Below are positions 6,137 through 25,087 of a stretch of 29,904 nucleotides of DNA, in pieces. The translations under genes were made by a program, and so were the position numbers. Position 1 is the stretch's first letter; each line of letters opens with the position of its first letter. The stretch is from a virus. The notes under the pieces were generated by a model that worked only from the letters and a program-made list of their open reading frames with translations, was not told where the DNA came from and made no database searches. The stretch covers positions 1-29,904 of IMG/VR virus record IMGVR_UViG_3300025892_001625. The stretch is one strand, 5' to 3'.

Positions 6137-7309
6137 ATGGCACGGCGGCGCATGTTTCTAGACATCAATTGTGTTGAGGCTGCGAGAGAGCGTATGCGCC
6201 ATGTCTATGACACATTTGATACAGTCTGCGTTCAGTTCAGTGGGGGCAAGGATTCTACTGCATGTTTGTATCTTGCAAAAGAGATTCATGAAGAACGTGG
6301 GCTTGGGCCAGTTAAAGTAATCTTCCGGGATGAAGAAATGCTTTCTCCTGCGGTAGAGGACTACGTGAAGCGTGTCAGCAACTACGACTGGGTTGACATG
6401 GAGTGGTATTGTTTACCGCAAGGTCAAGAGTTGTGGGTGTTGGGGCGCAGACAATATGTATTGTTGTGGTCAAAGAAGCGAGAGCGTAGTGGGCGGTTGT
6501 TCAGACCTTTTCCTGAAGGGTCACTTAGGGCAGAGCACTTTGGGTTAAACCCTGAGAAGGCAATTCCCCGCAAGATTGACGAGTATACCATGCACGGTAA
6601 GAAAGGACGAACGGCATTCATCACTGGAATCCGGGCTAATGAGTCTATGATCCGCTACCGGACAGTGACACAGAAGTTGAATGAAAACTATATCAATCGG
6701 CCTTTCAAACTTTCCAAGGCCATCCCAATGCGGTTCGCTAAGGTAATCTATGACTGGACATCTGACGATGTTCTGAAGTTCATCCACGAAGAGCATGACG
6801 GGGAGTACTGCGACTACTACGATTACGCAGCGATGAGTGGGGCTAATCAGCGGGTCGGTATTCCTCTTCATTCAGTTGCTGCTCGCCGTCTGTCGGATGT
6901 TTTGCGTACTGAGCCTGATTTCTATGATGAACTGTATAGATGCTTCCCTAGTATTGAGGCACAGCGTCAGTTGTGGGCAGAGTACGATATTGAAGCGGCT
7001 ATCGACTTTTACGCTTCCGAAGGCTGGAAGGGCGTCAAGCACTGCGTTGATGATAATGTGTTAACACCAGGGCTTCATAGGGCTGCACTGGTGTATGCGA
7101 ACAACTTTAAGAAGAAGCACGCCACAGATTCATACGGGTATCCAGTAGATCATTTGATCAGAACTTTGCTTTTAAACTCTTTCATGGGTTCCCCTAGTCC
7201 GGTTGGACCTAAAACAAAGGCGCACAATAAACGTGTTGCGCTATTAGACGAAGAGACTCAGCAGTTAATGGATGCGGACAGTCTTGACATTCAAGACGAC
7301 ACTCGGTAG
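6137..7309 (+). CDS. PAPS-reductase-like PP-ATPase (IbrA/DUF3440-like)
   Basis: A 390-aa protein of the adenine nucleotide alpha-hydrolase superfamily. The PP-loop SGGKDS (residues 35-40, within VCVQFSGGKDSTA) binds the pyrophosphate of ATP or PAPS. The length and the downstream FITGIRANES segment, containing the conserved GxRxxES, fit IbrA-like/DUF3440 proteins rather than classical CysH of about 240 aa. It could adenylate or sulfurate a substrate, or control expression as proposed for IbrA. ATG 6137 is chosen because GAGG lies just upstream; the frame also opens earlier, inside the ParB-like gene. A ParB-like gene flanks it on each side. Its TAG stop doubles as the first bases of the next promoter's -10. 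Confidence 0.85.
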   Translation: MARRRMFLDINCVEAARERMRHVYDTFDTVCVQFSGGKDSTACLYLAKEIHEERGLGPVKVIFRDEEMLSPAVEDYVKRVSNYDWVDMEWYCLPQGQELWVLGRRQYVLLWSKKRERSGRLFRPFPEGSLRAEHFGLNPEKAIPRKIDEYTMHGKKGRTAFITGIRANESMIRYRTVTQKLNENYINRPFKLSKAIPMRFAKVIYDWTSDDVLKFIHEEHDGEYCDYYDYAAMSGANQRVGIPLHSVAARRLSDVLRTEPDFYDELYRCFPSIEAQRQLWAEYDIEAAIDFYASEGWKGVKHCVDDNVLTPGLHRAALVYANNFKKKHATDSYGYPVDHLIRTLLLNSFMGSPSPVGPKTKAHNKRVALLDEETQQLMDADSLDIQDDTR

Positions 7310-7319
7310 AGTAACGGTA
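7284..7319 (+). promoter_or_regulatory. Predicted leaderless promoter for second ParB-like gene
   Basis: -35 TTGACA (7284-7289), exactly the consensus, 17-bp spacer, -10 TAGAGT (7307-7312), seven bases, then ATG 7320. The predicted +1 is at or one base before the ATG. The -10 begins with the TAG stop of the PAPS-reductase-like gene. No Shine-Dalgarno precedes the ATG. Confidence 0.75.
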
Positions 7320-7841
7320 ATGGATTATTGTAAAACCTCTGAGTTATCCCCTGCGAAGTGGTCGTCTGCGTGTTACATTGTTAAACCCGACTACAAGCGG
7401 CTGTTATCGTCTATAGACACATACGGCATTCTTAGTCCGATTGTAATTCAGAAAAATGGTACAATCATTGACGGGTACCATCGCTGGATTATTGCAAATG
7501 AGTTGAAGATTAAAAAGGTTCCTGTTGCTGTTGTAAATTGCGACGACGTGGAAGCTGTACTGCTACACATTGACATGAATAGATACCGTGGCATTGTTGT
7601 TGCTAAGTACCTCTCTAGGTTGATGCAGCGAATTATGCAGTCACAGCGGTACACCGAAGAAGAATTACGCACCAGGCTAGGCATGACCTACGATGAGTTT
7701 GATGTCTTGCTGGATGGCACACTGATCAAGATGCGTAAAATTAAACAGCATACGTATTCTCCGGCGTGGGTTCCTATTGAATCTAAAAACGGAGAAGACC
7801 TTCACATCGAACGACCCACGGGTCATTCCGAGCAAGCTTAG
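7320..7841 (+). CDS. ParB-like nuclease-domain protein (second copy)
   Basis: A 173-aa protein with a compact ParB/Srx domain: YGILSPIVIQKNGTIIDGYH (residues 35-54), where GILxPI and IIDGYHR are the two family boxes, followed by VPVAVV and a helical C-terminal region (about 95-140) reminiscent of the DNA-binding helices after the ParB core. It is shorter than the ParB-like protein at 5341 and differs in sequence, so it is not a recent duplicate. ATG 7320 is preferred over the upstream ATG 7272 because the promoter's predicted +1 lies there and 7272 would place the -35/-10 inside the coding region. Confidence 0.83.
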   Translation: MDYCKTSELSPAKWSSACYIVKPDYKRLLSSIDTYGILSPIVIQKNGTIIDGYHRWIIANELKIKKVPVAVVNCDDVEAVLLHIDMNRYRGIVVAKYLSRLMQRIMQSQRYTEEELRTRLGMTYDEFDVLLDGTLIKMRKIKQHTYSPAWVPIESKNGEDLHIERPTGHSEQA

Positions 7842-9674: not shown

Positions 9675-10245
9675 CCCTAGCGAGCAAGAGAACTTTGTTA
9701 TCGCAGTGACCCAACTAAAGAAGGGTGGTCATTATGTTGAACTAGGTGCTTTTAATTCCCACGAGGGTAGTAACACCCGTATTCTTGAAGAGGATTTCAA
9801 TTGGAACGGTGTGTCGTTTGAAATTGACTCTGAGCGTAAGGCGCAGTTTGTTTCCAATAGGAAGAACCCTTGTTTTGGTGATGCGCTGAGCTTTGACTAT
9901 ACAGAGTATTTCAAGGCGCAGGAGTGGCCTAAGCAGATTGACTTTCTGCAAGTTGATATTGACAACGGGTATGATCAAGCTATGCGGCCTGAGGGAAGTC
10001 CGTACACTTCTTTGCTTGGGCTGATCTCTTTACCTCTTACTGTTTATCGGTTTTCGGTTATCACGTTTGAGCATGATGCTAACATGTACTTTCGGAACGA
10101 ATCTATTCGTGATGCACAACGAGAGATTCTAGACGCCTTAGGCTACACACTAGTGGTCAGGACTATACATGAAGACTGGTGGGTCGATCCTACTGTTATT
10201 GAGCCAGACACCTACCGGCAACAGTTGAGGTGGGAAGTTCTTTAG
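9655..10245 (+). CDS. FkbM-like methyltransferase
   Basis: A 196-aa protein resembling FkbM-family SAM-dependent methyltransferases. Visible signatures are YVELGAFNSHEGSNT (SAM-binding loop), GVSFEID (acidic residue after strand 2), IDFLQVDIDNGYD (the D/E pair typical of FkbM proteins) and a C-terminal GYTLVVRTIHEDWWVDP segment. FkbM enzymes usually O-methylate sugars or small molecules. ATG 9655 has the Shine-Dalgarno GGAGAG seven bases upstream; the frame also opens at 9538 inside the oxygenase gene, which is less likely. Its TAG stop (10243-10245) overlaps the convergent terminase stop in the four bases TTAG. Confidence 0.83.
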   Translation: MQNQQFSPSEQENFVIAVTQLKKGGHYVELGAFNSHEGSNTRILEEDFNWNGVSFEIDSERKAQFVSNRKNPCFGDALSFDYTEYFKAQEWPKQIDFLQVDIDNGYDQAMRPEGSPYTSLLGLISLPLTVYRFSVITFEHDANMYFRNESIRDAQREILDALGYTLVVRTIHEDWWVDPTVIEPDTYRQQLRWEVL

Positions 10246-11558
10246 ATGATGATTTCAATCTTACGTCGGATACCCATACCTAATCCGGCGCATAGGTTGA
10301 AGGCGTGGGTGGCGGCGTCAACTTGATCGTCGTGGACTCGTGCTTCGGGAAAGGACGACATTTCATCAATGAAGTCTGTGGTCCAGTCGCCTCGTACTAG
10401 CCGCACGTTTCCGTTAGCTACAGCCGCTGCAAATGGCTTTGCTCTCGTTACTTTGTCACCTGTGGCTCGTTGCCCTGAGAAGGTGTAACCGGGTAGGACG
10501 TACCGAGCGTATTGGTCCACTAAGTTTTTACCTGCTGATCCCGGTTCTTGCTCCATCTGGATTGTTATTTCGGGTCCGTCCTCTTCAGCAGTTTCTTTAA
10601 TAAACTTTTCAACCTTCTCGCCTTTCGCACGAATGCGGCGTACATCTAGGATGTAAAAGACACCGTTATCAAATGCTCCGAGGCATCCAACGGTCCAGTC
10701 AGGGTCAGGATTAGAGCTAGACGGTTCGGTTCCGGCCAAGTCCCAGAAGCGTACTACAGTTGTGTCTTTACTTAAGTCAGGCATTTCGCTTGGCTCAATA
10801 ATCTCAAAGCTACTACGATCAAACATTGATCCTAGTGTCGTTGCCCACCAGTCACCAAACTCTAGACGCTTTCGTTCGATGGGGTCTAGCTCTGCGAGCA
10901 TGGTACGGTAGGAATCTGGGTCAATTCCGGGGTTGTCAGTCAGCATTGAGGGAATAAAGATACGCCCCTTGGTTTTACCTTCAACTAGGAAACGTTGACG
11001 GACCCAGTTAGGTGCAGGGTTAGTTGCACAGCGCATTCTGAGAGGGACCGAAGCTAGTGGGCCACTTGCAGGGCGGCGCAAACGTGAGAACATGTACCGA
11101 TAATCTGCTTCTCTAATTTCGGTAACCTCATCCATTCCGATGAACTGAAACTCTGAACCCTTGTACCGCAAATAGTCGTTGACGTTATTTAGGTAACCGA
11201 ATGTTATTCGTGCCCCATTGGGAAACGTTGCAGTGTAAGCATTTGCGTTCCAGTGTACATCGTCAAACTGCATAATCCATTCTCTGAAACGGTCCATTAG
11301 AGCGCCAGGTAGGGCAAGGTCAGCGTATGTACGCCTAAACAAAATAGCACTGTAGTTTGGAATGTCCACGTATTGTAGAGCGGCCATAATCAGTGCTGAG
11401 GATTTGCCTCCACCTGCGGCTCCACCAAACATTACTTCTTGTCCTTCTGATCGGAGAAAAACTTTTTGCGTTAGCGATGGTTCTTCAACCCAGTAATCAG
11501 ATCGCTTTGGTTCCAAGTATGCTTTGATTTTTTCCCAGTCGGGAGTCTCTGTGGACAT
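10242..11558 (-). CDS. terL: Terminase large subunit
   Basis: A 438-aa two-domain packaging motor. N-terminal ATPase: Walker A GGAAGGGKSS (45-54), Walker B FIGMDE with Asp143-Glu144. C-terminal RNase H-like nuclease: Asp273 (FWDLAGT), Glu336 (MEQEPG) and Asp414 (HDDQVD), the three metal-binding acidic residues. It moves DNA into the prohead and cuts the concatemer. The frame opens at TTG 11579, but ATG 11558 is preferred because AGGAG (complement of 11569-11573) lies about ten bases upstream. It is the only - strand gene, convergent with the FkbM gene and divergent from the portal operon. No small terminase is recognised nearby. Confidence 0.95.
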   Translation of the reverse strand: MSTETPDWEKIKAYLEPKRSDYWVEEPSLTQKVFLRSEGQEVMFGGAAGGGKSSALIMAALQYVDIPNYSAILFRRTYADLALPGALMDRFREWIMQFDDVHWNANAYTATFPNGARITFGYLNNVNDYLRYKGSEFQFIGMDEVTEIREADYRYMFSRLRRPASGPLASVPLRMRCATNPAPNWVRQRFLVEGKTKGRIFIPSMLTDNPGIDPDSYRTMLAELDPIERKRLEFGDWWATTLGSMFDRSSFEIIEPSEMPDLSKDTTVVRFWDLAGTEPSSSNPDPDWTVGCLGAFDNGVFYILDVRRIRAKGEKVEKFIKETAEEDGPEITIQMEQEPGSAGKNLVDQYARYVLPGYTFSGQRATGDKVTRAKPFAAAVANGNVRLVRGDWTTDFIDEMSSFPEARVHDDQVDAATHAFNLCAGLGMGIRRKIEIII

Positions 11559-11564
11559 ATCTGC

Positions 11565-11599
11565 TTGTCTCCTAGACAAATAAACGGTACAGTATACTT
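11565..11599 (+). promoter_or_regulatory. Predicted leaderless promoter for the head operon
   Basis: -35 TTGTCT (11565-11570), 17-bp spacer, -10 TACAGT (11588-11593), six bases, then ATG 11600. The predicted +1 is the A of the ATG of the 52-aa membrane protein gene. The -35 overlaps the region encoding the terminase Shine-Dalgarno on the other strand. Confidence 0.6.
11591..11596 (-). promoter_or_regulatory. Possible -10 element for the terminase gene
   Basis: Read on the - strand this is TATACT, about 33 bases from the terminase ATG, leaving a leader that includes the AGGAG site. No good -35 is seen at 16-18 bp (CGATTT at 17 bp), so the call is weak. It overlaps the + strand -10 (11588-11593). 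Confidence 0.35.
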
Positions 11600-11758
11600 A
11601 TGAAGAATCTTCTAAATCGTTCTGGCGCTGCTCATATCATGATGGGCGCTGGTATAGTATTAATAGGCTTTGGTATTAGTATACTCAGTTTGGGGTGGGG
11701 TCTGGCAAGCGCTGGCTTTGCTTGTGGAATTTACGGCTATCTCTTAGGGGCTGAATAA
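11600..11758 (+). CDS. 52-aa small membrane protein
   Basis: A 52-aa protein (MKNLLNRSGAAH start) dominated by hydrophobic residues. Residues about 13-32 (MMGAGIVLIGFGISILSLGW region) form one membrane span, and a second short glycine/alanine-rich stretch (33-50) may form another. It has a basic N-terminus and an acidic C-terminus, as in small phage membrane or holin-like proteins, though a lysis role is only a guess. The ATG coincides with the predicted +1 of a promoter, and the TAA stop shares a base with the portal ATG (TAATG), so it is the first cistron of the head operon and likely couples portal translation. Confidence 0.72.
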   Translation: MKNLLNRSGAAHIMMGAGIVLIGFGISILSLGWGLASAGFACGIYGYLLGAE

Positions 11759-13224
11759 TGGCGTGGAACTCAAGTTCAAATAAATCTCTTCAAGACGCAA
11801 TCTCGGGGCAGCAAAAGGCTGCTTCTGTTTCTGTAGGCGCACCAGTCTCGTACAGCCCGTCGTTGACCGGTAATGATCGTGGGTATCACGATGGTTGGGA
11901 TATCACTAAGGCTTATAAAGAGGGTGTGGCTAAGGTTACTTGGGTGTTCCGCTGTATTGATGTTATTTCATCGAACCAGGCACGTCTACCTATGATGTTC
12001 CGTAAAGACAACAATCCGTTTGGTGAGGTTGTCGGGGATCACTCTATGTTGAAATTGTTCAACAACACTGCAAATGACGGAGAGAATGCGTTTGCCTTCA
12101 GGTATCGTTTATCTGCGCAGTTGCTGATTAGTAGCCGTGGTGTCTTTGTTGAGATTGTTAGGGGACGTGGCGGTAAGCCTATTGCGTTACACCTGCTACC
12201 CCCACAGAACACTTCGCCTATTCCCGATGTAAACAAGTTTGTGAAGGGGTTTGAGGTTAAGATCAGTGCGATGGAAAAGCGTACTATTAAACCTGAGAAC
12301 GTTATTTGGATTCGCCGCCCGCATCCACTAGACCCTTATCTGTCTATGACTCCGATGGAGGCAGCAGGTGTTGCTATTGAGTTAGAGAACTTGGCTAAGA
12401 TTTATAACCGCAACTTCCTGATTAACGATGGACGACCGGGTGGGCTGTTGGTTCTCCGTAGCGAGATTGCTGACGAAGATAAAGAGGAACTTCGTTCCCG
12501 GTTCCGTGGTAATATTGGCCGTGCAGGATCGGTTGGTGTCATCTCATCGGATGACGGTGCCGATTTCGTAGACACTGCTGCCAGTCCACGAGATGCCGCT
12601 TACGTACAGATGCGTACTATTACAAAAGAAGAGATTCTTGCTGCGTTTGGTGTGCCTGAGTCTATCATTGGTAACTCGTCTGGTCGGACTTTCTCTAACG
12701 CTATGGAGGAAGGTAAGGTTTTCTGGATGGAAACCATGTCTCCGCACCTTGACTTGATTGCTCGTTCCTTTGATAAGATTGACGATTCTTTCTTTGTGGA
12801 TTTTGATGTGAACAACGTTCCCATTCTTGTCCTCGCTAAGCAAGAGCGTGAGCGTCACCATCTTACAGAGTTTCAGACTGGCTTGATTAGTGCCAATGAA
12901 TACCGTGAATCATCCGGCAGGAAAAAGGTTGTTTCCGACATTGCGGACTCTCTTCTTTCTAACCCGAACCAGACCCCAATTGCAAATACCGAAAAGCCCA
13001 TGAATGATCAGGGTAATGTCGAAGAGGGTGTGCCGCTAGATGTTCAGGCACAGAATGCGCAGCAGTCAGTGGTCACAGAGTTTAGCCCAGAAGAGGGCGG
13101 CTTTGTTGAAGCCGGTACTGTAACAGGTACTGAAAATATTGAAGCTCCTGCATCCCAAGTTCCAAGCGAATTAGAGGGCGATGAAGCGGAGGGTAAGAAG
13201 AGTGTCCCTTTTCAGCAGGTCTAA
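11758..13224 (+). CDS. Portal protein (HK97-type)
   Basis: A 488-aa HK97/SPP1-type portal, forming the dodecameric ring through which DNA is packaged. Recognisable segments are WVFRCIDVIS near residue 62, a VIWIRRPHPLDPY stretch, the core helices with TPMEAAGVAIELENLAKIYN, the GRPGGLL region, and ILAAFGVPESIIGNSSGRTF, a signature of the family. Residues after about 405 form a Glu/Gln-rich, probably disordered tail. The frame ends at TAA 13222-13224, but a -1 slippery heptamer just before the stop would fuse it to the MuF-type frame, giving a product of about 749 aa. It is likely made in both forms. Confidence 0.94.
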   Translation: MAWNSSSNKSLQDAISGQQKAASVSVGAPVSYSPSLTGNDRGYHDGWDITKAYKEGVAKVTWVFRCIDVISSNQARLPMMFRKDNNPFGEVVGDHSMLKLFNNTANDGENAFAFRYRLSAQLLISSRGVFVEIVRGRGGKPIALHLLPPQNTSPIPDVNKFVKGFEVKISAMEKRTIKPENVIWIRRPHPLDPYLSMTPMEAAGVAIELENLAKIYNRNFLINDGRPGGLLVLRSEIADEDKEELRSRFRGNIGRAGSVGVISSDDGADFVDTAASPRDAAYVQMRTITKEEILAAFGVPESIIGNSSGRTFSNAMEEGKVFWMETMSPHLDLIARSFDKIDDSFFVDFDVNNVPILVLAKQERERHHLTEFQTGLISANEYRESSGRKKVVSDIADSLLSNPNQTPIANTEKPMNDQGNVEEGVPLDVQAQNAQQSVVTEFSPEEGGFVEAGTVTGTENIEAPASQVPSELEGDEAEGKKSVPFQQV

Positions 13225-13237
13225 AGTTTGGTGACCT
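13188..13237 (+). promoter_or_regulatory. Predicted -1 programmed ribosomal frameshift signal
   Basis: In the 28-base overlap of the portal frame and the -1 frame, the heptamer C CCT TTT (13206-13212) matches X XXY YYZ in the portal frame. A Shine-Dalgarno-like GGAGGG (13188-13193) lies 12 bases upstream, as in dnaX-type stimulators. Four bases downstream, AGGTC (13217-13221) can pair with GACCT (13233-13237), a weak hairpin with an 11-base loop. Confidence 0.7.
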
Positions 13238-14006
13238 AGGTAGATACACAACTTGGGAAGAAAAAGCTCTATATAGGATTGAGTCGTTAGAAGATCAACT
13301 GTCTAAGCAGTTAGACGCTATTATTGACGCTCAAGAGCAGACAGTTCTTGATGCCATTAGCACACAGGCCACATCGGCTTTACTGACATTAGGGGAAGAC
13401 GCCAACTTCGCTTCAATTGTCCCTATGTCGGCTTTAGCTGTAAGTACCATCCCTCTCACAGACTCAATGAAAGACATTTACCAGCAGGCAATTTCTGACA
13501 ATATAGAAGAAGGTTATGGGGAATCTGTAACCGCAGAGCAGGCAGATGCCGCAATCTCTGAGCACCTAGCTACGGTAAACAATTTCAACTCCACGACACA
13601 GGACCAAGTTGAAGTTTCCTTGGCCTCTGCATCGTTAGGGCGTGACAAGGACGGTAATGATCTAAACATTACTTTCAAGATTATTTTGGCTACGGTGCTT
13701 GTTAAAGCAGTTTTCAATAAATTGCGGAGTAATCGCAAGTCTATGATTGTAGACTCGGCTGTTCTTGGCCCATATAATCAGGGACTGTATGATTCTGCTG
13801 CTAATGCTGATATTGGTCTGAATAAAGAGTGGATTTCGTTGAAGGACGAGAGCGTGCGGATCAGTCACCGACAATTACACGGCGATAAAGTCCCTGTTAG
13901 TAGTGCCTTTTATGTGGATGGTACTCCGATCAGATTCCCGAAAGACCCTTTGGCCCCTCCGGGATTGACAATTAATTGCCGTTGCGTATTAAAGTTTACG
14001 AGATAA
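13212..14006 (+). CDS. MuF-type head morphogenesis domain (frameshift extension of portal)
   Basis: This frame encodes the C-terminal signature of Mu gpF/SPP1 gp7 head morphogenesis proteins: ISHRQLHGDKVPVSSAF, then PxDPLAPPG and INCRC near the end. Upstream is about 70 residues of clearly protein-like, helical sequence (TWEEKALYRIESLEDQLSKQ). No ATG, GTG or TTG occurs in the frame between its opening (13197) and ATG 13425, well inside the domain. Entry by -1 frameshifting from the portal at 13206-13212 would give a 264-aa extension. Portal-MuF fusions are known as single ORFs in other phages. A lone sequencing indel or reinitiation at ATG 13425 (193 aa) are the alternatives. Confidence 0.8.
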   Translation, partial: SAGLKFGDLGRYTTWEEKALYRIESLEDQLSKQLDAIIDAQEQTVLDAISTQATSALLTLGEDANFASIVPMSALAVSTIPLTDSMKDIYQQAISDNIEEGYGESVTAEQADAAISEHLATVNNFNSTTQDQVEVSLASASLGRDKDGNDLNITFKIILATVLVKAVFNKLRSNRKSMIVDSAVLGPYNQGLYDSAANADIGLNKEWISLKDESVRISHRQLHGDKVPVSSAFYVDGTPIRFPKDPLAPPGLTINCRCVLKFTR

Positions 14007-14035: not shown

Positions 14036-14091
14036 AATGCTCTCTAATGGTTCAGTTACAGAGTGTACTATATGAGTGTCGCAGTATTCTT

Positions 14092-14097
14092 AAGGAG
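14092..14097 (+). promoter_or_regulatory. Shine-Dalgarno deciding the protease start
   Basis: AAGGAG lies four to five bases before ATG 14102. It favours this start over the in-frame GTG 14063, which would encode 13 extra residues and lacks a binding site. Confidence 0.8.
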
Positions 14098-14101
14098 AGT
14101 C

Positions 14102-15715
14102 ATGACCAATTTAATTGAGCAGTCAGATGTTGCTGAGAACACTGACCCCGATTTTGATTTTAAGTCAATTTCCGGCCAAATCGGCATTGACAAAGCACAG
14201 GGCGTTGTCGAAGCGTTTGTGTCTGGTATCGGAAACAAAGATTCAGTCGGTGACGTGGTGGTTTCCGGTGCGTTTAATGGCTCCCTTAAACGACGTAAGC
14301 CTCGTGTTGTGTGGGGCCACGATTGGAACCAGCCTATCGGCAAGGTTTTAGAGATTTATGAAGTTCCCAAGAGTGATCCTCGCCTTCCAGACAAGATGAA
14401 GCAGGCAGGCATTGGTGGACTATTTGCCAAGGTTCAGTTCAACCTTAACACCGAGCGTGGTCGTGAAGCTTTCGCTAACGTAGCTTTTTACGGTATGGAC
14501 CAAGAGTGGTCAATCGGTTACAAGACAATTACAGCCGACTTTGATGCTGGGCGTCAAGCAAATATGCTTAAAGAAGTTGAGTTGTACGAGATGTCTCCTG
14601 TTCTGCATGGAGCTAATCAACTGACTGGGACAATTTCTGTCAAAGACGACAGTGAGGGCACTGTTGAAAAGGGGGGAGTATATAGCATGGATGACGACAA
14701 AGACGCTCCTTCTAACCGGGTGGACGCATTGTCAGCGATGATGGGACGGATGCTGTCTCAAGCTCTCAAAAAGCCAGTTACGATTGTAGAGATTAATGGA
14801 AACTCTGTTGTGTTCCAAACGGGGGAGGACATGACGTGGATGGCTACGTTCACTCGTGAGGGCGACCGTATTATGGTAGGCAAGCCCACTCGTGTAAAGC
14901 CGACGACTTCTTACACCCCCGTTGGTGATGAGTCCCCACCATCAATGATGATTAAAGACCCAGACGAGAAAGACGCTGAAGAGCCTGAAGGTATCCGTGA
15001 TGAGAATTCAGAGCAGGGTACTTGGGCTACCCCAGATATTGCTTTAGCGTGGTCAAAGACATTCGGTTGCTCTGGTTACCACTCTCATGGCGGCGGGTAT
15101 TTGCCGTGTGAAACCCATGAAGAGTATGAAGAGGCTCTTGAGAAGTTTGACGATAACGCCAACATTAACGTTCACAACAACTATCTTGAAGGTGTAGATG
15201 TTGATGAAGCCAAAGACGCTGCGTGCGGTTGCGAGTCAGAGAAGGGCGCATGTGCTTGCGGTACCGAGGAAAAGGGTCACATGATGCGTTACCAGAAGCC
15301 CGACTACTTGAAGGACCCAATGGCACTATTGCTAATGGCGTATAATGAGATGCTAAAGATTCGTGGCGCAGGCGAGTTGCGTGAAGCAACGTTGAGCTTG
15401 ATTAACGAAGTTGAGACCTTTTTGACGGAGGCTCCCATGTCTCGTTCAATGGAGCAAGGGGAGAAGGTGACTTCAGGGTTTATTGTGCATGTTAAGTGTT
15501 CAGAGGTGGAGTCGTTTGATGTCAGCAGTGCTGTTGCACAGGTGCCTGTGTTTGCGTTCAAGTCGGAAGACGGCGTTGACCTGCACTTCTCGGCAAAGGT
15601 TGAGCATCAAGAGTTGCTTGAGAAGGTAGCTTCAGCACTTGCTGTGCTTTCTTTTGAGCCTAATATTTCAGTATCCAAGCCCGAGAACCTTGACACTGCT
15701 GCCGGTGTTGAGTAA
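14102..15715 (+). CDS. HK97-type prohead protease with long cysteine-containing extension
   Basis: A 537-aa protein. Residues 20-181 are a caudovirus prohead protease (U35/S78 type), which matures the capsid by cleaving scaffold and capsid N-termini: His73 (WGHDWNQPIGK), Ser137 (QEWSIGYK) and a Glu around 158-163 (EVELYEMSPVLHG) form the likely catalytic set. The usual protein is about 200 aa; here about 350 residues follow. This extension contains an acidic linker, a GCSGYH...PC module (Cys323, His327, Cys336), a CxC-x6-CxC cluster (Cys375, 377, 384, 386) and a helical end. It may act as scaffold or deliver cargo (inference). ATG 14102 has AAGGAG upstream. Confidence 0.92.
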   Translation: MTNLIEQSDVAENTDPDFDFKSISGQIGIDKAQGVVEAFVSGIGNKDSVGDVVVSGAFNGSLKRRKPRVVWGHDWNQPIGKVLEIYEVPKSDPRLPDKMKQAGIGGLFAKVQFNLNTERGREAFANVAFYGMDQEWSIGYKTITADFDAGRQANMLKEVELYEMSPVLHGANQLTGTISVKDDSEGTVEKGGVYSMDDDKDAPSNRVDALSAMMGRMLSQALKKPVTIVEINGNSVVFQTGEDMTWMATFTREGDRIMVGKPTRVKPTTSYTPVGDESPPSMMIKDPDEKDAEEPEGIRDENSEQGTWATPDIALAWSKTFGCSGYHSHGGGYLPCETHEEYEEALEKFDDNANINVHNNYLEGVDVDEAKDAACGCESEKGACACGTEEKGHMMRYQKPDYLKDPMALLLMAYNEMLKIRGAGELREATLSLINEVETFLTEAPMSRSMEQGEKVTSGFIVHVKCSEVESFDVSSAVAQVPVFAFKSEDGVDLHFSAKVEHQELLEKVASALAVLSFEPNISVSKPENLDTAAGVE

Positions 15716-15742: not shown

Positions 15743-17569
15743 ATGAGTGAAAATACCAATGACGATCTTGGCAAGTTTGAAGAAATCGAAGCGCTTCTTT
15801 CTGTTGAGGAAAAGGGTGCTGTTGAAGACGAGAAGGACGCTGCTACTGTCTTTATGACTGACGTTCGATTTAAAGAGGCTGTGGAAACTGGCGATCTTCT
15901 AGACGAGACTGCATTTTCTGCTCTTGATCCCGAGGATCAAAAGGGCTATGAGATGATTAACGTTGTTAACGAAGAGACTAAAGAGCCTATGGGCTGGATG
16001 TTCCGTTACAAGGCTGATGATGCAGATGAAGACGTTGAAGTCAAGGATGACGCCGAGGCAGAAGTCACCACTGATGAGACTGATGGCGAGGTCGTTGAGG
16101 ACATCGCAGACTCGGTTGATGAGAAGGCAGCTTCAATCATGATGCAGATGGCTGCTGATGACGAAGAGAAAATGCCAGAAATGGTCATGACTGATTCCCG
16201 CTTGAAGCAGATGGAAGATGACGACGACCTTATCGCAGAAGAGAAGTATGATAATCTTGACGAGGATGCCAAGGATTCATACGAGGCTGTCGAAGTTATT
16301 GATGAAGATTCTGGCAAGGGATATGGAAAGCGGTATCGCCGCCGTAGCCCGCTTGAAGTTAGCGCCATGCGTAAGGGCGAGTTTGACCTTGACGCAGAGA
16401 AGGCTGACGAGACCCGGCTAGTGGCAATCGCAACCGAACTTCAGCAAAAGGCTGACGGTGACATGGGCGATATGTTTGACACCGAAGAAGACGCTCTTGA
16501 GCGGGCGGCTGCACTTGGCTGTGAAGGCACTCACGGTGCTGGTGATAAGTTCATGCCTTGTGCCACTCACGCCGAGTGGGAGAAGTTGAGTAATGCTAAG
16601 CCAGAAGCCGAGCCTGAGGCTGCTCCTGAGGCGGCAGAAAAGTCAGACGACTTCCTGTGTGGTATGCAACGCAAGTCTGTTGACCAGCCGTGCGATTTCT
16701 GTCAGGGCGGTTGCGCTCCAGAAGACGGTCTGCCCGGTTTGGCTGAGGTTGAGTCAGTCGTTAAGGTGGCGCATCCTGGTGAAATTGTTGGATCAGGCTA
16801 TTCCTCCACGGATGATATGTTTGTCATCGACGTTAAGTGCGAAGACGGGACATGCATTGAAGTGTTCCTGACAGGCGAAGGCGACGAACTTGGTTGGCTG
16901 CGTGTTGACGAGAGCCTAGTAGAAGGTAAGTCAGCCGAAGAACTTAACATCATTTCTTCATCTGACGCAGAAGCCGTTGCGGTCAAAGCCTTTGATGACA
17001 TGGAGCTTGACTCCCTGGCTGAAGTAATGGGCATCATGGTGGACGTATTCGCTGACGAAGACGTGTACGTTGTTGAACTTGACTCCGACAAGAAGAGCTT
17101 TGACTTCTACGTTTCTGTAGAGGGTAAAGTCCTAGGCTACGACGAGTACGACACGATTGAGGACTTTGCGTATGCCATGAGCGAAGAGGAAGAGATCAAG
17201 GCACTTGAAGCCGAGCTTGAAATCAAGCGCATGTACTCACGTGAGCAACGTGAGGCAATGGCTGAGTCTGGTGAAGCTATGGAGGATGGATCATTCCCGA
17301 TTGCTGACGAGGCTGACCTCCAGAATGCCTTGGCTGCTTTCCAGCGTGCTAAGGATGTTGACGCTGCTAAAGCTCACATTGCTAAGCGAGCAAAGGAGTT
17401 GGGTCTTGAGGAAATGCTTCCTGAGGACTTTGCTTCCAGTGAGGGTGAAGCCCCTGAAGCGGACAAGCCCGAAGCCGAGGCAGAGGTGGACGGCGAAAAG
17501 TCTGACGACTCCGAGTTGCTTTCTGCTCTAGATGAGTTCCGCAGTTTGATGGGAGACGATCTTTCCTGA
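15743..17569 (+). CDS. Very acidic modular head protein (scaffold-like?)
   Basis: A 608-aa, strongly acidic protein (long Asp/Glu runs) of unknown function, with an AGGAG Shine-Dalgarno before ATG 15743. Modules seen: an internal duplication (residues about 36-91 and 147-202, each with an FMTD/VMTD start, a DLLDE/DLIAEE middle and a K/RYxxR end); a GCEGTH...PC module (Cys260, His264, Cys273); a Cys cluster in LCGMQRK...CDFCQGGC; a beta-rich pair of domains (about 335-480); and a C-terminal helical module (497-563, with DGSFPI, DLxNA and AKxHIxKRAKxLG) shared with the 26307 gene. Position between protease and capsid genes suggests an internal scaffold, decoration or packaged protein. Confidence 0.85.
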   Translation: MSENTNDDLGKFEEIEALLSVEEKGAVEDEKDAATVFMTDVRFKEAVETGDLLDETAFSALDPEDQKGYEMINVVNEETKEPMGWMFRYKADDADEDVEVKDDAEAEVTTDETDGEVVEDIADSVDEKAASIMMQMAADDEEKMPEMVMTDSRLKQMEDDDDLIAEEKYDNLDEDAKDSYEAVEVIDEDSGKGYGKRYRRRSPLEVSAMRKGEFDLDAEKADETRLVAIATELQQKADGDMGDMFDTEEDALERAAALGCEGTHGAGDKFMPCATHAEWEKLSNAKPEAEPEAAPEAAEKSDDFLCGMQRKSVDQPCDFCQGGCAPEDGLPGLAEVESVVKVAHPGEIVGSGYSSTDDMFVIDVKCEDGTCIEVFLTGEGDELGWLRVDESLVEGKSAEELNIISSSDAEAVAVKAFDDMELDSLAEVMGIMVDVFADEDVYVVELDSDKKSFDFYVSVEGKVLGYDEYDTIEDFAYAMSEEEEIKALEAELEIKRMYSREQREAMAESGEAMEDGSFPIADEADLQNALAAFQRAKDVDAAKAHIAKRAKELGLEEMLPEDFASSEGEAPEADKPEAEAEVDGEKSDDSELLSALDEFRSLMGDDLS

Positions 17570-17586: not shown

Positions 17587-17766
17587 ATGAGACCCGCAGA
17601 AGTGGGAAACAGGATTAGCCTCGCTAACGAAGCCTTACTTAATGTAGGGTCCAGGATTGTTTTAGGCTCCACGGTAGACATCGAAGCGGTAGAATACCTA
17701 GAGGACGATGGCGTAATTTATGAGTTTAGACCGTTAGAGAGGTTTGGCGATTCTGATGCTGACTGA
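17587..17766 (+). CDS. 59-aa hypothetical protein
   Basis: A 59-aa reading frame (starting MRPAEVGNRI and ending GDSDAD) with a GGGGG-type Shine-Dalgarno about ten bases upstream. The composition is protein-like, with alternating hydrophobic residues and an acidic end. It fills the gap between the acidic head protein and the giant gene and overlaps the latter's ATG 17756 by 11 bases, which suggests translational coupling. No domain recognised. It could be a small linker or chaperone for the giant protein (inference). Confidence 0.65.
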   Translation: MRPAEVGNRISLANEALLNVGSRIVLGSTVDIEAVEYLEDDGVIYEFRPLERFGDSDAD

Positions 17767-20700
17767 AATTGAAAGAGCAGAGGTTGGAGCCTTTACCCTT
17801 AAAGTGGGACCTGAAGTCGGGCCTAACGCTGATGCTCTGACGAGTCTTACTCGTGGACGAGGGCCACGTAGAGGTAACCTAGAAGACCTCTTGAAATACT
17901 GGCGTCCGATCATGAAGAAGCCTGGCGGTTTTCGCCGTTGTGTCGTCATCCTCATGGATAAGCCTCAGTTTGGTGGCAAGCCTCAGCGCATCTGTGCTTG
18001 GTTGCACCATGAGATCACGGGCAAGTGGCCCAACGAAGGCAAAGGCAAAGGCAAAGGTAGTCGTAAGCGTCGTGGCCGGAGTGTAAGGCGTGTTAGTAGT
18101 GCGGCTCGTAGGGGAAAGTCTGGGGAACTCTCTTCACATAATCAGGTGATTGAAGTGTCTCCTTTGCGTATTGCAATTCGGGAGTCTAGAGACTTTGGTG
18201 GCGTGCTGGTTCAGCCTATTGCGGGCCGTCAGGGGGCAGTCGATATGAAGGCTGCGATGTTTTCTACGTATGCCTCAAAAGTCCCTGTCAACGGGGCAGT
18301 AAATGAAAAACGAGTGGGTATTTTTGGCGCTAACTCTCGTACAGGCCAGGCCGCTCAAGCGGCTGGTAGTATTATTCTTCCGGGCGACATCTCAGACATT
18401 CGTAGTCCAATCCGATCACAAATTTATGAAACCTTAACACCCGGTGGCGGTCGTGGTCGTCCGGGTCTTCCTAGTGCTAGGCGTTTGGTTGGTGGGCTAG
18501 GTCGTCGTGGTAGCCGTAGCACTGGTGGTGTGCGTAATAAGTTTAGGTGTCCTCCCGGATTCCAAAAGGGTGGAACCTTTACAAACGCTCAGTTCAGTAC
18601 CTGTGGTGCTCAAATTTTGGGTATTCCTGGTAAGGGTGTAGGCTCACCGTCTTCTGGGGCGCAGCGAGCTTTGGCTGCGTTGGCTCGTGACGCTGCTCTT
18701 GTTCGGGAGATTGGTGACCTTCGGAGTAATCGTAATCCTTATGATATTATTCGTGCGGCTCAGATTCCTGTTGCCCCTAAGAAGGGTAGCCCTACCCGTA
18801 GGCAGACCTCTATCAACAATGTGTTGTCCCGTGCAGACGAGGCCGATTTCAGTTTGCGTGCTGTTAGGCGTGACGGCGTTATTTTGGAACCTGTTGTTTC
18901 TTTGCAGGCTTTGGGTAAGCTTGACGAGTTTGACGATTTAGCTGATGGTACTCTAATTGACCGGTATACTTCCGGGCAGATTGGTAAGGACATTGTTCCT
19001 GCGTTTTCTACAGGTCTTCGTGATGTTTATGTTGACATCCCTGAGTCGGGTTCAGTAAAGATTAGCAGGGTCGGTGGCGAGTTGACACCTACCGAAGTAG
19101 ATAGTCTGCGTAGAAGTTTCCCTACTTCTATGCGTCGGGCAGCTAATTTACCTGACCCAAGCGCCGGAATTCGTGACTATGCAGATAGGTCCGATGGTAG
19201 GTTCTCGGTAGACTTTGGTGAATTGAAAAACAATAAGTTTGAGGTTGTGGGTAACAGGAACAAATTGATTCGTGTTGAAACGGCAGGCGGTAAAACGCTG
19301 AGTGTTCCGCAGTGGGTTTACGATACGTTCCTGTCTCGTTCTGCGCCACGCCGAGCAAAGAACGCTCCGGTATATGAGATGATTTCGGAGGGGAAAGCGG
19401 TAAACCCTTTTTTCTTATCCACCAAGACGATCACGGCGCTGACGCACCGAACGGCTAATTATCATGACTTGATTGAAGTTCGGGCCGCTATTTTTGCGGA
19501 GGGCCGAGATAACATTCAGTTTAAGAAGCGGCGTGCTGGTGGGCGTGCTCGTGCAATGTTCAATCCGGGTCTCAACCGATATCAGTGTCCTCCCGGCACT
19601 CGCTATGGTGGCCGCATTACTGACCAGTTTGGTCGGAACTGTGGTTATTCACTTCCACGAACAGTCGTTAATAGTTTGGTTGACCTTGGTATCCGTATTG
19701 AGGATGGCATGGAACGTCGGCGTAAACGTCGTCAGGAGCGTGGTTCCCGTCGTGAGCGTTTGGGTTCTGCTGTTAAGGAGAAGTACGATAATTCTTTAAA
19801 TAAGCTTGCTGACGTTATGGACAAAATGGCTAGCGTTTTGGATAAGACGGAGGATAAGCGTCCGGGTCGGATTGGTCCGAGTATTCAGGATCGACGGAAT
19901 GCTGCTGAGTTGACAGATGAAGATCGTAATCTTCTGGGGGGTGCGCCTTTAGCTGACGCTTTAGATAATTTAAAGAATGTTGTTAATGGACAAGACTTTA
20001 AGAATCCTGATCTTCCTGAGATTCAAAAAGCCTATAAGGCTGTGGAGAAGGCTGCTGGTTTAGAAGCCGGTCGTCTTACGGATAATCCTCCGAAGACTGA
20101 CAATGACCGCAAGATGGGCAAGCGCATACTTGATTCAATTGCTGGCATTTTGGATCGGATTGCTAATTTTGTTGATCCTGATACATCTCGTCGGGGACGA
20201 AGTGATAACCGTCGTCCTGCTGCGTCTGCTGCTTCGGCTCCGAAGGCTCCGAAAAAGTTTGATTCTCCTCGGAAGCCTAAGAATGTTGACAACTTTGCGC
20301 AGCAGTCTATTGGTGGCCGTCGTAAGAAGGTTGATGTTCCTGAGCTTAAAGACTTGTCTGATGATGACAGGACGAAGTTAGACGCTTCAATTCAGAGTGA
20401 GTTTAATGAGTTGTCATCGTTTTGGGCTAATCGTCTAAATAAAGATATTAATGATTTTTCTGAAAAAGATATTCGGAAGTATTTAAAAGCCAACAAGAAA
20501 GATAAGGACGCCCGTGTTGAGCGTCGCCGTTATAATGATTGGCTAGAACTTAACGAGGTTAAGCGTGCCCAAGATGAAGGGTCATTTAATGGAGATTACG
20601 AAGATTTCGTTGGCCGTCTTGCGCCGAACCGTCGTGATTCTATTGTAAGTTCACTCAAGCCTCCTCAAGACCCTCCGGCTGACGCTAATGTTCCTGATGG

Positions 20701-23700
20701 CGTAAATATGGAGACTCCTGCTGCTGATTTGCCTGCGACTCCTAAAGATTATGGTCCTGACGGGTTCAAAAAAGAACGTGGCAAGATGAAGAACTTGGAG
20801 TTTATCAATAGTCTTTCTGATGAAGAGTTAGAAAGCTATAAGCAGGCACATATTGAGTATAAGAAGCAACGTGAGGCTGATGGTGAGACTGCTTACGGTA
20901 TGAAAAACCGGATTAAGCAGATGGAGCAGATTCAGGCTATACGAAGTAAGCAACGTGGCGAGTCTAAGTCACCTCCAACTTCTAAAGACTTGTCTGTGGA
21001 TGGGTTTACTAAGGAGCGGAACGCTGCCTTATTGAATGATGGCGTTGATGATATTTTTGTTAATCCAGACGAACTGTTTATTAAAACTTTGACTGACGAA
21101 GAGCTTGACGGGTATATTGAGAGCTTCAACAAGGACTTGAACGATCCAAAGAAGCCGCCTATGTCTCCGAGTAAGAAGAAGACCAGAGCGAAACTTTTGG
21201 GTGAGCGTAGTAGGCGTGATAACAACGAAGATTCTAAAACGGCTGTAGACAGCGCCGAGTTGGAGATGGGTGATCCTGATCCAGACGGTTTCCATCCGAT
21301 TGACAAAGTTGACGATGCTGTAAACAATCCTGACCTTAATGATACTACGAATCTTCCCGACGACATCATTAATAGTAGCGCTGATGGGTTGACAGGCTTT
21401 AAGCCTAAAGCGGAGGCGCACGTGTATCGTGAGAGTGTTTACGATGATTCGCCGTTTGATGCAGAGCAGATTGGGAATGTCGATCCAAAGCGTCTGTTTG
21501 ATGATCCTGATTTTGATCTTGATGATCCTAATACTCGTGTTGGTGTGCTAGTGGTGGATAGCGCATCGGGCCATGTGATGATCCGTCACTCTAAAGAAAA
21601 TTTCGGTGGGTTCGGCTGGACTTTCAGTAAGGGCGGAATAGACGGTGGGGAAACTGCTCATGCCGCTGCTATGCGTGAATTGTTTGAGGAAACAGGATTA
21701 ACAGCAGATGATGTTGGCGTTGTGGGTTCCCTCAAAGGCAGTTACGGAGTAGAGGGTGGTTCTAAAAACTACTTCTTTGTTGCACAGGTAGCGGACGGTT
21801 GGGATAAGTTTAATCTTGCAGATAACGATGAAACAGATGATTTAATTTTTGCCAAGCCTGGAGATGTTGCAAGTTTTATTGACAAAGATACGACCAACGT
21901 TAATGGTAAGCAACGTGACTTGAAGATTGCTGACGCTCTAGATGATTGGGTCACTAGTGGCGGTTCTTCTAGCGACGAGATTTACCAAACTAGCATTGCG
22001 TCCAAAATGGCGGCTGACGATATCGGAGGAGGACTCCCTGGCGAGTTTGCGAAGGCGGGCGGGAAAGCTCCTGTCGCTAGTGATACGGCACCGGAACCAA
22101 CATATAAACCATCATGGGTGCCGAACGCTGACGCAAAAAAGAAGTCGAAGCAGACTGATTTACCACTCAAGGCCGATGCGTTGCAGACTGACGAGAACTA
22201 TGCAGAAAAACGTACTGCTGCTGCGGAGTTGCTGGCAGAGAACGGTGTTGATGCTTTGAATGACCCAGAGTTTAAGATTACAGATTTTGATCTTACAGAT
22301 GACTTGTTTGACGCTATCAGTAATGGAGAGGTTTCTCGCTTTGATGAGATTCCTACCGGGGATATGGGTATCAACGGACAGGTTGGTTTCCCGACTAAAA
22401 TGTTCCGTGATTCGGCAAATGGAAATGTGTATGTGTTGAAGAAGCCTGCTCGTAATGATAAAGAGCATTTGTCTGAGTCTTCAGCGGCGATTGTTGCACA
22501 GGATTTAGGTCTTCCTGTTCCTAGCGTTACGTTTGCAGGTAATGACTTCCTTGTGAGTGGTGATGACGTGGCTCCCAACGGTCAAAAAATTACTAAGTTT
22601 GGGGATACAACAAACCGTCCTATGATTATTGAGCATGTTGGTAACGTTCTAGATATGAACGAGGGTGTTGGTAACAAATACAATCATAAACAGATGGGTG
22701 CTATGTTGGCTCAGCAGTATTTGATTAGCGAGCCGGATAATCATTATGCCAACAGACTCACTATGGTCGGTAAAAATGACGATACATCAATCTTTGCTTT
22801 TGACGCTGGTAAGGCATTTATGCCCCACGAAGAGAAGTTTGGTGAGCAGTTCTTCGGCTCCAGGTTCGGTGATAGTATTAAGAATCTTCCTTCAGATGAT
22901 CGTAAGGCCGTCATTGCTGAAGCGCAGAAAGCATTAACCAATTATGATGTTGCCGCTTCACAGAAACGTATTCGGGACCAAGTTGAGGCGGGGAAGTTGA
23001 CGGATGACGAGGCTGGTCGTTTGTTAGAAATTTCTGACTTTGTTGCTCAGCGCCACGGTTCGTGGGAGACTAGCATGTCTAAAGACTTTGGAGACGACAT
23101 GGTTAGTGGTGATGCGTTGCAGAAACTAGTAAGCCCTGTAAGCATGTTTGAACCGCCTGAGTCTTCTAAGAAGTATGGCAAGACTGCTAAGCCGGATAGT
23201 CCTCCGAATGACCCGGCTAGTTACGCTGATGGAGTCGGCCCGCTGGCAGCTAATATGAGTCTTTCCAGTGAAAACGTTTCTACAATTCAAGCTTCTACAG
23301 CGCAGGGTGTGCTTAAGGCGATAAGCAGTCCTTCTAATATCAAGCAGAAGGACGATAGCTTTGACTCATCGCTTCCCATTGTTAGTGAGTTTTCTTTAGA
23401 TGGGCCTGCTCTGCAAGGCCAGAAAGCGTCGTTTACTCCGGGACACTTTGTTAACGAGGGTGGGACTGGTGTTGGGGAAGCGAAGTTTGTTAAAAATGCC
23501 GAGTTTTCTTTCAACCTTTCCCCTGAAGCCCATGAACAGCTTGTGGCTCAAATTGACTCGGGGGTTGCGCCTTCTTACAAGATTAGTGGGTCTGAGCAGA
23601 ATGTATTCCACTTCTCGGGCAGCAGGGTGCCTACTCTAAAAGTTGATTCGACTCTGCAAGGTCAAACACTACAGACAAATAATTTTTCTTCAAATGGTTA

Positions 23701-25087
23701 CTCACTGCTTAGCTCATCATTCGGTCCTAAGTCAGCGGCCAAGATTCAGCCGCCTGCCGATCAGGATATCCGAATTGTTGATTTCGGTGATGTTAAAGCT
23801 ATGATTTATCCTGAAGTGGCTACTAATGGTGGTGGTGAGCATGGGTTGAGTCGGAGAGTTAGATTGTTTGTTGGCGGTGAAGATAGAGAGAAATTGAAAG
23901 ACGCCAGTGAGGTGCAAGCAACTATTGAAAAAGTTTTCAGTAACGTTTCTGTAGACGCCTCACCCCCAACAGAAACTCAAATACGTGATTCGTTGGCACG
24001 AGACTTCCTAACTAAAGGAACTAGTTTGCAGTTAGGGGTGGGTGACGTAGATTTCCATAACGGGTACGGGACGGATTTCAGTACCCCTGATACAATGGAG
24101 AAAAGTTTAAAGGCTTTAGGGTCATACGGTGTTAAGCCAGAAGACATCACATATTCTTTGGCTGGAGGAAAACCCCACCCTGTTTTGAAGCCTGAGGTAG
24201 CAAAGCGTGTAGCTCTTGAATTGGGGGAGATGCGTGTTCAAGAGAAGGGTGGCAAAAACACTAAACACTCAGATGGTTCTCCTAGAGTACCACACTTTTA
24301 TTCAGATCAAAAACTTAGCCTCCTTGGCACGGAGGGGCGTCAGAAGTTTATTGACCGCCTGTATAATGATGGGTCTCATACAGGTTCGTTGGATAGGGCA
24401 GAGAAGTCACAATCCAGTGATGCGTGGAACGGGCGAAAAGGCCAGTCAGGGGAAACTGATTCGGCGCACATGTCGGGTGAAGGAATGTACATTCGTTCAA
24501 GTGATGATGCTACGTCCGGTATCTCGGGCGGTGTGATTCTTTTCAGTGACGATGTGATAAGCAAGTTAGATGCACAGTGGGCCTTCGATGATGTCTGGGG
24601 CAACCCTCATAACACAGATCAGGTAGCTAAATGGAATGTGGGCGGCGGGCCGTGGGGGTCCTACATTGATGGGTTGCAGACTGACGGTAGTGGAAATGAA
24701 ATTTATATTCCACATCAAGTGCCGTGGACTGATTCTGTGGTAGACCTTGGTAAAGTGCCGGGGGATCGTTTAGGGAAGTTAGAAGTAATGGTTGCAGATC
24801 AGAATATTGATATTAGTGTTCTTAACAGTAAGCACATTGTTGTTCAGACCGATCCATCTTCCTCCGATGTGCGTTTTGTGGTTTGGGATCAGCCTGAGGG
24901 CGGAGGTCCCCTTAAAATGACATTTGGTCCTCCCATTAAGCGATCAGCACTTCCTTCTGCCAAGATTCAAGGTAAGCTAGACAAGTACAAGACTGCTGAT
25001 CCAAATGCTCCAGTCCTATTTGGGTCTGGAGTTAAAAAACCCGCCCCGTTGCCCTTGCTGGACATTGACGAAGATGATATGATGTAG
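17756..25087 (+). CDS. Giant multi-domain head-region protein (Nudix + HipA/PI4K-like kinase + possible ART)
   Basis: A protein of about 2443 aa. N-terminus: a Cys/Trp/His-containing domain (FRRCVVIL...ICAWLHHEITGKW), then a basic GKGKGK/Arg-rich tract (three GGCAAA repeats at 18038-18055) likely to bind DNA. Two CPPG-x14-C modules follow (Cys265/Cys283 and Cys611/Cys629), a long charged region with a duplicated segment (about 998-1062 and 1076-1150), a Nudix domain (about 1260-1390, complete Nudix box 1293-1315 with REL-x-EE-x-GL), a HipA/PI4-kinase-like core (Lys1562/1563, Asp1661-x-His1663-x2-Asn1666, Asp1683 in FDAG), and a C-terminal part with GEGMYI (2241) and NEIYIP (Glu2315) suggesting an ADP-ribosyltransferase-like fold (weak). 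ATG 17756 is preferred to TTG 17744. Likely virion-packaged (inference). Confidence 0.9.
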   Translation: MLTEIERAEVGAFTLKVGPEVGPNADALTSLTRGRGPRRGNLEDLLKYWRPIMKKPGGFRRCVVILMDKPQFGGKPQRICAWLHHEITGKWPNEGKGKGKGSRKRRGRSVRRVSSAARRGKSGELSSHNQVIEVSPLRIAIRESRDFGGVLVQPIAGRQGAVDMKAAMFSTYASKVPVNGAVNEKRVGIFGANSRTGQAAQAAGSIILPGDISDIRSPIRSQIYETLTPGGGRGRPGLPSARRLVGGLGRRGSRSTGGVRNKFRCPPGFQKGGTFTNAQFSTCGAQILGIPGKGVGSPSSGAQRALAALARDAALVREIGDLRSNRNPYDIIRAAQIPVAPKKGSPTRRQTSINNVLSRADEADFSLRAVRRDGVILEPVVSLQALGKLDEFDDLADGTLIDRYTSGQIGKDIVPAFSTGLRDVYVDIPESGSVKISRVGGELTPTEVDSLRRSFPTSMRRAANLPDPSAGIRDYADRSDGRFSVDFGELKNNKFEVVGNRNKLIRVETAGGKTLSVPQWVYDTFLSRSAPRRAKNAPVYEMISEGKAVNPFFLSTKTITALTHRTANYHDLIEVRAAIFAEGRDNIQFKKRRAGGRARAMFNPGLNRYQCPPGTRYGGRITDQFGRNCGYSLPRTVVNSLVDLGIRIEDGMERRRKRRQERGSRRERLGSAVKEKYDNSLNKLADVMDKMASVLDKTEDKRPGRIGPSIQDRRNAAELTDEDRNLLGGAPLADALDNLKNVVNGQDFKNPDLPEIQKAYKAVEKAAGLEAGRLTDNPPKTDNDRKMGKRILDSIAGILDRIANFVDPDTSRRGRSDNRRPAASAASAPKAPKKFDSPRKPKNVDNFAQQSIGGRRKKVDVPELKDLSDDDRTKLDASIQSEFNELSSFWANRLNKDINDFSEKDIRKYLKANKKDKDARVERRRYNDWLELNEVKRAQDEGSFNGDYEDFVGRLAPNRRDSIVSSLKPPQDPPADANVPDGVNMETPAADLPATPKDYGPDGFKKERGKMKNLEFINSLSDEELESYKQAHIEYKKQREADGETAYGMKNRIKQMEQIQAIRSKQRGESKSPPTSKDLSVDGFTKERNAALLNDGVDDIFVNPDELFIKTLTDEELDGYIESFNKDLNDPKKPPMSPSKKKTRAKLLGERSRRDNNEDSKTAVDSAELEMGDPDPDGFHPIDKVDDAVNNPDLNDTTNLPDDIINSSADGLTGFKPKAEAHVYRESVYDDSPFDAEQIGNVDPKRLFDDPDFDLDDPNTRVGVLVVDSASGHVMIRHSKENFGGFGWTFSKGGIDGGETAHAAAMRELFEETGLTADDVGVVGSLKGSYGVEGGSKNYFFVAQVADGWDKFNLADNDETDDLIFAKPGDVASFIDKDTTNVNGKQRDLKIADALDDWVTSGGSSSDEIYQTSIASKMAADDIGGGLPGEFAKAGGKAPVASDTAPEPTYKPSWVPNADAKKKSKQTDLPLKADALQTDENYAEKRTAAAELLAENGVDALNDPEFKITDFDLTDDLFDAISNGEVSRFDEIPTGDMGINGQVGFPTKMFRDSANGNVYVLKKPARNDKEHLSESSAAIVAQDLGLPVPSVTFAGNDFLVSGDDVAPNGQKITKFGDTTNRPMIIEHVGNVLDMNEGVGNKYNHKQMGAMLAQQYLISEPDNHYANRLTMVGKNDDTSIFAFDAGKAFMPHEEKFGEQFFGSRFGDSIKNLPSDDRKAVIAEAQKALTNYDVAASQKRIRDQVEAGKLTDDEAGRLLEISDFVAQRHGSWETSMSKDFGDDMVSGDALQKLVSPVSMFEPPESSKKYGKTAKPDSPPNDPASYADGVGPLAANMSLSSENVSTIQASTAQGVLKAISSPSNIKQKDDSFDSSLPIVSEFSLDGPALQGQKASFTPGHFVNEGGTGVGEAKFVKNAEFSFNLSPEAHEQLVAQIDSGVAPSYKISGSEQNVFHFSGSRVPTLKVDSTLQGQTLQTNNFSSNGYSLLSSSFGPKSAAKIQPPADQDIRIVDFGDVKAMIYPEVATNGGGEHGLSRRVRLFVGGEDREKLKDASEVQATIEKVFSNVSVDASPPTETQIRDSLARDFLTKGTSLQLGVGDVDFHNGYGTDFSTPDTMEKSLKALGSYGVKPEDITYSLAGGKPHPVLKPEVAKRVALELGEMRVQEKGGKNTKHSDGSPRVPHFYSDQKLSLLGTEGRQKFIDRLYNDGSHTGSLDRAEKSQSSDAWNGRKGQSGETDSAHMSGEGMYIRSSDDATSGISGGVILFSDDVISKLDAQWAFDDVWGNPHNTDQVAKWNVGGGPWGSYIDGLQTDGSGNEIYIPHQVPWTDSVVDLGKVPGDRLGKLEVMVADQNIDISVLNSKHIVVQTDPSSSDVRFVVWDQPEGGGPLKMTFGPPIKRSALPSAKIQGKLDKYKTADPNAPVLFGSGVKKPAPLPLLDIDEDDMM

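Follow-up and report, generated by a model that had tools for sequence, protein, structure and literature searches.

The window, by which we mean the whole stretch of 29,904 nucleotides of viral DNA that was analysed, carries on its plus strand a portal protein gene (11758-13224, 488 amino acids) overlapped at its 3' end by a second open reading frame (13197-14006, stop included), which encodes a MuF domain and lies in the -1 frame with respect to the portal. The membership of both families is met: the portal scores 179.1 bits against the Phage_portal profile PF04860 (1.6e-52) for a gathering score of 39.1, with matches to PHROG 2662 and 12, and the second frame scores 36.2 bits against the Phage_Mu_F profile PF04233 (1.1e-8) for a gathering score of 29.6, with a match to PHROG 2468 (7.3e-24), which makes it MuF or SPP1 gp7-like. 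The first-pass annotation had stated that the MuF frame is open from 13197, overlaps the portal by 28 bases and contains no ATG, GTG or TTG before 13425, and re-reading of the coordinates found all three statements exact. The window does not qualify as an in-frame portal-MuF fusion, the portal frame ending at a TAA (13222-13224) and MuF being in the -1 frame. This junction is located between the portal and the prohead protease. Around it, the terminase large subunit (10242-11579, minus strand) is on the strand opposite to that of the portal and the other head genes, and an ORF of 2447 amino acids (17744-25087), with a NUDIX domain in the middle of the protein, lies within the block of head genes, with the protease on one side and the major capsid gene (28014-29303) on the other. 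Short DUF3721 repeats (PF12518) are common to three proteins of this block (14063-15715, 15743-17569 and 26307-27818), in one of which they are carried at the end of the prohead protease ORF.

The last codons of the portal gene (...GAG GGT AAG AAG AGT GTC CCT TTT CAG CAG GTC TAA) contain the elements expected for a programmed -1 frameshift. The heptamer C CCT TTT (13206-13212) follows the X XXY YYZ rule in the portal frame within the overlap of the two ORFs, where it had been placed from the outset, and the stop of the 0 frame comes 16 nt past its start. It is the sole in-frame heptamer of this kind (X≠Y) among the 488 portal codons, and 10 portal codons taken at random would contain one or more with a probability of 0.03; a chance origin is untenable because the heptamer is conserved across relatives. 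Twelve nucleotides upstream, also as first described, stands a Shine-Dalgarno-like GGAGGG (13188-13193), and between the two the -1 frame is closed by a TAA (13194-13196). Both elements have experimental precedents: C_CC.U_UU.U and its variants ending in A and C are among the motifs giving measurable slipping in Escherichia coli, and GAGG or GGAG sequences 6-17 nt before the motif are proven stimulators (Sharma and others, PMC4066793).

The first-pass annotation had proposed looking for the heptamer and the frame relation in related phages. The portal protein, used to scan IMG/VR, matched 80 loci; in 55 of them, as in the window, the portal is followed by a long -1 ORF, and all 56 have the heptamer; another -1 locus, truncated by the end of its contig (L036), brings the loci that keep both features to 57. 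Across these 57 loci, all with MuF in the -1 frame, the element reads GAGGG(T), 11 nt, then CCCTTT(T/A/C). Many contigs are near-copies, and the first set comprises 33 different junctions, all of which have CCCTTT(T/A/C) at the same place, the 0-frame stop being 10-43 nt past the heptamer start. The other arrangements lack the signal. In six loci (L037-L042), MuF is in the +1 frame and starts at an ATG of its own that overlaps the portal stop, and 15 have no MuF beside the portal, the protease coming directly after; in the last 200 portal nucleotides of these 21 loci, neither CCCTTT, nor GAGGG, nor any in-frame heptamer was found. Two loci end before the junction. Scanning with the MuF alignment added further loci obeying the same rule, including one with CCCTTTC (L209) and four in which GAGGAT replaces GAGGGT (L223-L225 and L228). 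CCCTTT is thus invariant and the heptamer ends in T, A or C and never in G, as the slip rule predicts. Finally, a pattern scan of IMG/VR with the right spacing returned 76 matches, 66 of them in the portal/MuF geometry, for 7 matches and none in that geometry when the spacing was one base shorter. No relatives were found in bacterial genomes. Of the marks of a canonical -1 frameshift, a 0-frame heptamer lying where the two ORFs overlap is present in all -1 loci, and a stimulator is provided by the Shine-Dalgarno-like GAGGG at a fixed distance.

Selection on the codons of the signal was estimated by counting synonymous changes on a tree of 39 different portal genes, over 298 columns with a conserved residue. 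These columns present on average 8.6 synonymous changes, and exactly four of them have none: E478 (GAG), G479 (GGT), K481 (AAG) and P484 (CCT), all within the element, so that synonymous-site conservation, a further mark of canonical -1 frameshifting, is met as well. At codon 483 the amino acid varies (L, A, V, D or R), yet the third base is always C, with which the heptamer begins; codon 485 is either TTT or TTA. The absence of synonymous change and the C-ending codon 483 imply a constraint on the nucleotides and not on the protein alone. The comparison of these sequences demonstrates the signal, its conservation and the exact match between its presence and the -1 arrangement. Separately, we observed that in every junction examined a -1-frame stop (TGA, TAG or TAA) precedes the heptamer by exactly 12 nt, while codon 480, where it stands, switches between E, R and K. 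This stop may guard the -1 frame or may reflect a mere purine-purine-G constraint, and the two cannot be distinguished.

The first part of the MuF ORF, about 70 residues without a start codon, is under purifying selection, with a dN/dS for close pairs of 0.12 before the first ATG and 0.09 in the remainder, which demonstrates coding selection on the start-less MuF. The AlphaFold model of MuF has a mean pLDDT of 81, with helices 17-51 and 54-65 at high confidence; the first long helix starts at residue 17 after the heptamer and is preceded by a flexible linker about 9 residues long. A Foldseek search with this model returned viral minor capsid and head morphogenesis proteins, with alignments spanning the whole of MuF (64 with E <= 0.001), and no related solved structure was found. 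Both predictions place the beginning of the MuF domain just past the slip site, the first residues being a linker to the portal, and the start-less segment is predicted to form the first helices of the full MuF fold. These data bear on a first alternative, in which MuF would be made as a separate protein, the ribosome either initiating internally (at a Met in frame or at a non-standard start) or re-initiating after the portal stop, the heptamer being incidental. An invariant Met is indeed found about 85-90 residues into MuF in 38/38 sequences, and the six sister loci mentioned above do use a MuF ATG of their own. However, no conserved start codon precedes this Met in the 38 sequences, a start linked to a Shine-Dalgarno sequence is absent from the first 75 MuF-frame codons in 31 of the 33 junctions, and a protein starting at the Met would lose the segment under purifying selection that is predicted to contain the first helices. 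Since this alternative also leaves the invariant CCCTTT and GAGGGT unexplained, we regard it as improbable.

A second alternative is that the RNA polymerase, rather than the ribosome, slips on the T run. The run within CCCTTTT is short, with only four T, and falls to three in the CCCTTTA and CCCTTTC forms; the T runs known to cause transcriptional slippage are longer than this. Transcriptional slippage would explain neither the GAGGGT at a fixed distance nor the need for CCC, and we give it very little credence. An indel introduced by sequencing or assembly, or the decay of a gene fusion, as might be suspected from the nearest cultured portals (Hanem, Cantare and Gilgamesh), which have MuF in the same frame, is practically ruled out: the -1 relation recurs in dozens of independent contigs, whose junctions take 33 different forms, and both reading frames are under selection. 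For the window this explanation is already refuted by its relatives.

A -1 programmed ribosomal frameshift thus remains the reading that we consider very probable, as a cassette yielding the portal (488 amino acids) and a portal-MuF fusion (749 amino acids); the slippage itself is inferred, no protein or reporter data being available. The conserved stimulator of this cassette is, on comparative grounds, the Shine-Dalgarno-like GGAGGG/GAGGG located 11-12 nt upstream and not a downstream stem. Such a stem of 5 bp (AGGTC/GACCT, 13217-13221/13233-13237) had been proposed as part of the signal and can be drawn from the window, but it did not stand up to analysis: its stability does not differ from that of shuffled sequences (z = +0.38), no covarying pair supports it among 7 close relatives, and no consensus downstream structure emerged over 38 sequences. 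Because no downstream RNA structure is conserved, the efficiency of frameshifting may be modest. Another candidate, a GGAGG/CCTCC hairpin upstream of the slip site, was dropped, since it is broken by the variation of codon 483 (CTC, GCC, GTC, GAC, CGC).

The mechanism that we propose assumes a standard anti-Shine-Dalgarno sequence and standard tRNAs, the host being unidentified. When CCU occupies the P site and UUU the A site (UUA or UUC in certain relatives), base pairing between the 16S rRNA and the GGAGGG, some 12 nt upstream, would hold the ribosome in place; both tRNAs would then re-pair one base back, on CCC and UUU, and reading would continue into MuF, giving a product made of portal residues 1-485 and of 264 residues read from 13212, 749 in all. 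Ribosomes that do not slip would stop 10-43 nt later and release the plain portal of 488 amino acids. Both forms should join the same portal ring, the fused subunits placing MuF inside the head, and as the portal part is shared, the slip rate would set the number of MuF-bearing subunits. Slipping, its rate, the stoichiometry and the effect on head composition all remain inferences, and it is in this sense that the frameshift probably sets the MuF copy number per portal ring. With an assumed ring of 12, a slip rate of roughly 8-17% corresponds to about 1-2 fused subunits. It is tempting to see the slip rate as a counter, which provides a small number (about 1-2) of MuF-bearing subunits and breaks the symmetry of the portal ring at translation, the mixture of the two portal forms being what is selected; we put this forward tentatively, holding it at slightly less than an even chance.

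No more than three changes are required on the portal tree to account for the frameshift class, which is spread across the main branches of the clade, with the MuF-less and separate-gene classes interspersed among it; the rooting is uncertain owing to the great distance of the outgroup. Relatives carrying portal and MuF in a single frame had been named at the outset as what would refute frameshifting, and inside the clade a single contig has such an in-frame fusion (L031:3372-5243). This contig keeps GAGGGT, 11 nt and CCCTTTA, with the 0 frame entering MuF and the -1 frame stopping after 7 codons. If real, a -1 shift would there make the short form, as in dnaX, which a single contig does not establish, and we found no second contig backing the fusion. 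Were the slip rate a counter, selection for the mixture of two portal forms would account for the slip site being kept even with the frames swapped. Outside the portal genes, nearly the same signal (GGAGGGTGAGCAGCGNCTCCCTTTA) ends an unrelated Gln/Glu-rich gene in two phage contigs of about 187 kb, L120 (8038-9605, plus strand) and L130 (reverse strand; 0 frame 6208-7377 and -1 frame 7356-7736 of the reverse complement). It is followed by a -1 ORF of 126 codons without an early start codon, with the 0-frame stop 19 nt on, and judging from these features a second use of the same frameshift cassette is possible.

Among the closest known counterparts is the tail assembly chaperone (lambda G/GT), whose frameshift in tailed phages was reportedly described by Xu, Hendrix and Duda in 2004, and in which a -1 slip at an X XXY YYZ heptamer near the end of a structural gene likewise gives short and extended forms from one start. 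Here, by contrast, portal and MuF belong to the head block and the stimulator is an upstream Shine-Dalgarno-like sequence without conserved downstream structure; the site is not found, as for G/GT, after a major tail gene and just upstream of the tape measure gene. In E. coli dnaX, a Shine-Dalgarno-like sequence also precedes the -1 heptamer, together with a downstream hairpin, and the shift shortens the product, a direction matched only by contig L031. Frameshifting is established in phage tail chaperones and in major capsid proteins (PMC5009743, PMC7881722). T7 gp10A/10B, the major head protein of Lactobacillus phage A2 and that of phiEco32-like phages such as Privateer (PMC7881722) likewise gain by frameshifting a C-terminal extension and a longer minor form, the lengthened protein being in these cases the major capsid protein, whereas here it is the portal, lengthened with MuF. 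In-frame portal-MuF fusions are known in Microbacterium phages of clusters EA3/EA5/EA8/EB (PMC7302621), and these actinophage fusions, with those of Streptomyces Gilgamesh, Gordonia Hanem and Brevibacterium Cantare, present the same domain order as here; they place MuF on every portal subunit, while here the fusion would be optional, via the -1 shift. In SPP1, the portal is a dodecamer to which the MuF protein gp7 binds strongly, with few copies in the procapsid, and gp7 is needed for full infectivity and not for assembly (PMC6316719); unlike the fusion proposed here, gp6 portal and gp7 MuF are two separate genes. The PRFect paper refers to MuF-like genes among unconfirmed predictions, in connection with VIP2-MuF fusion genes (PMC10885494). 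We found no report of a portal/MuF frameshift, or of a fusion made optional by frameshifting, in the open-access literature, a search that did not cover subscription papers or survey supplements and is not proof. The mechanism is known, and the gene pair and the architecture appear undescribed so far.

In practice, gene callers without a frameshift model truncate the portal and miss or shorten MuF, which here would start at 13425. The environmental phage clade offers a natural experiment, since close relatives have an optional fusion, separate genes, no MuF or, in one contig, an in-frame fusion. How the number of MuF on the portal is set is a natural question, and the frameshift would couple this number to portal synthesis, while the covalent fusion would deliver MuF to the head interior. 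The portal vertex is thereby added to the few phage structures whose make-up ribosomal frameshifting probably tunes.
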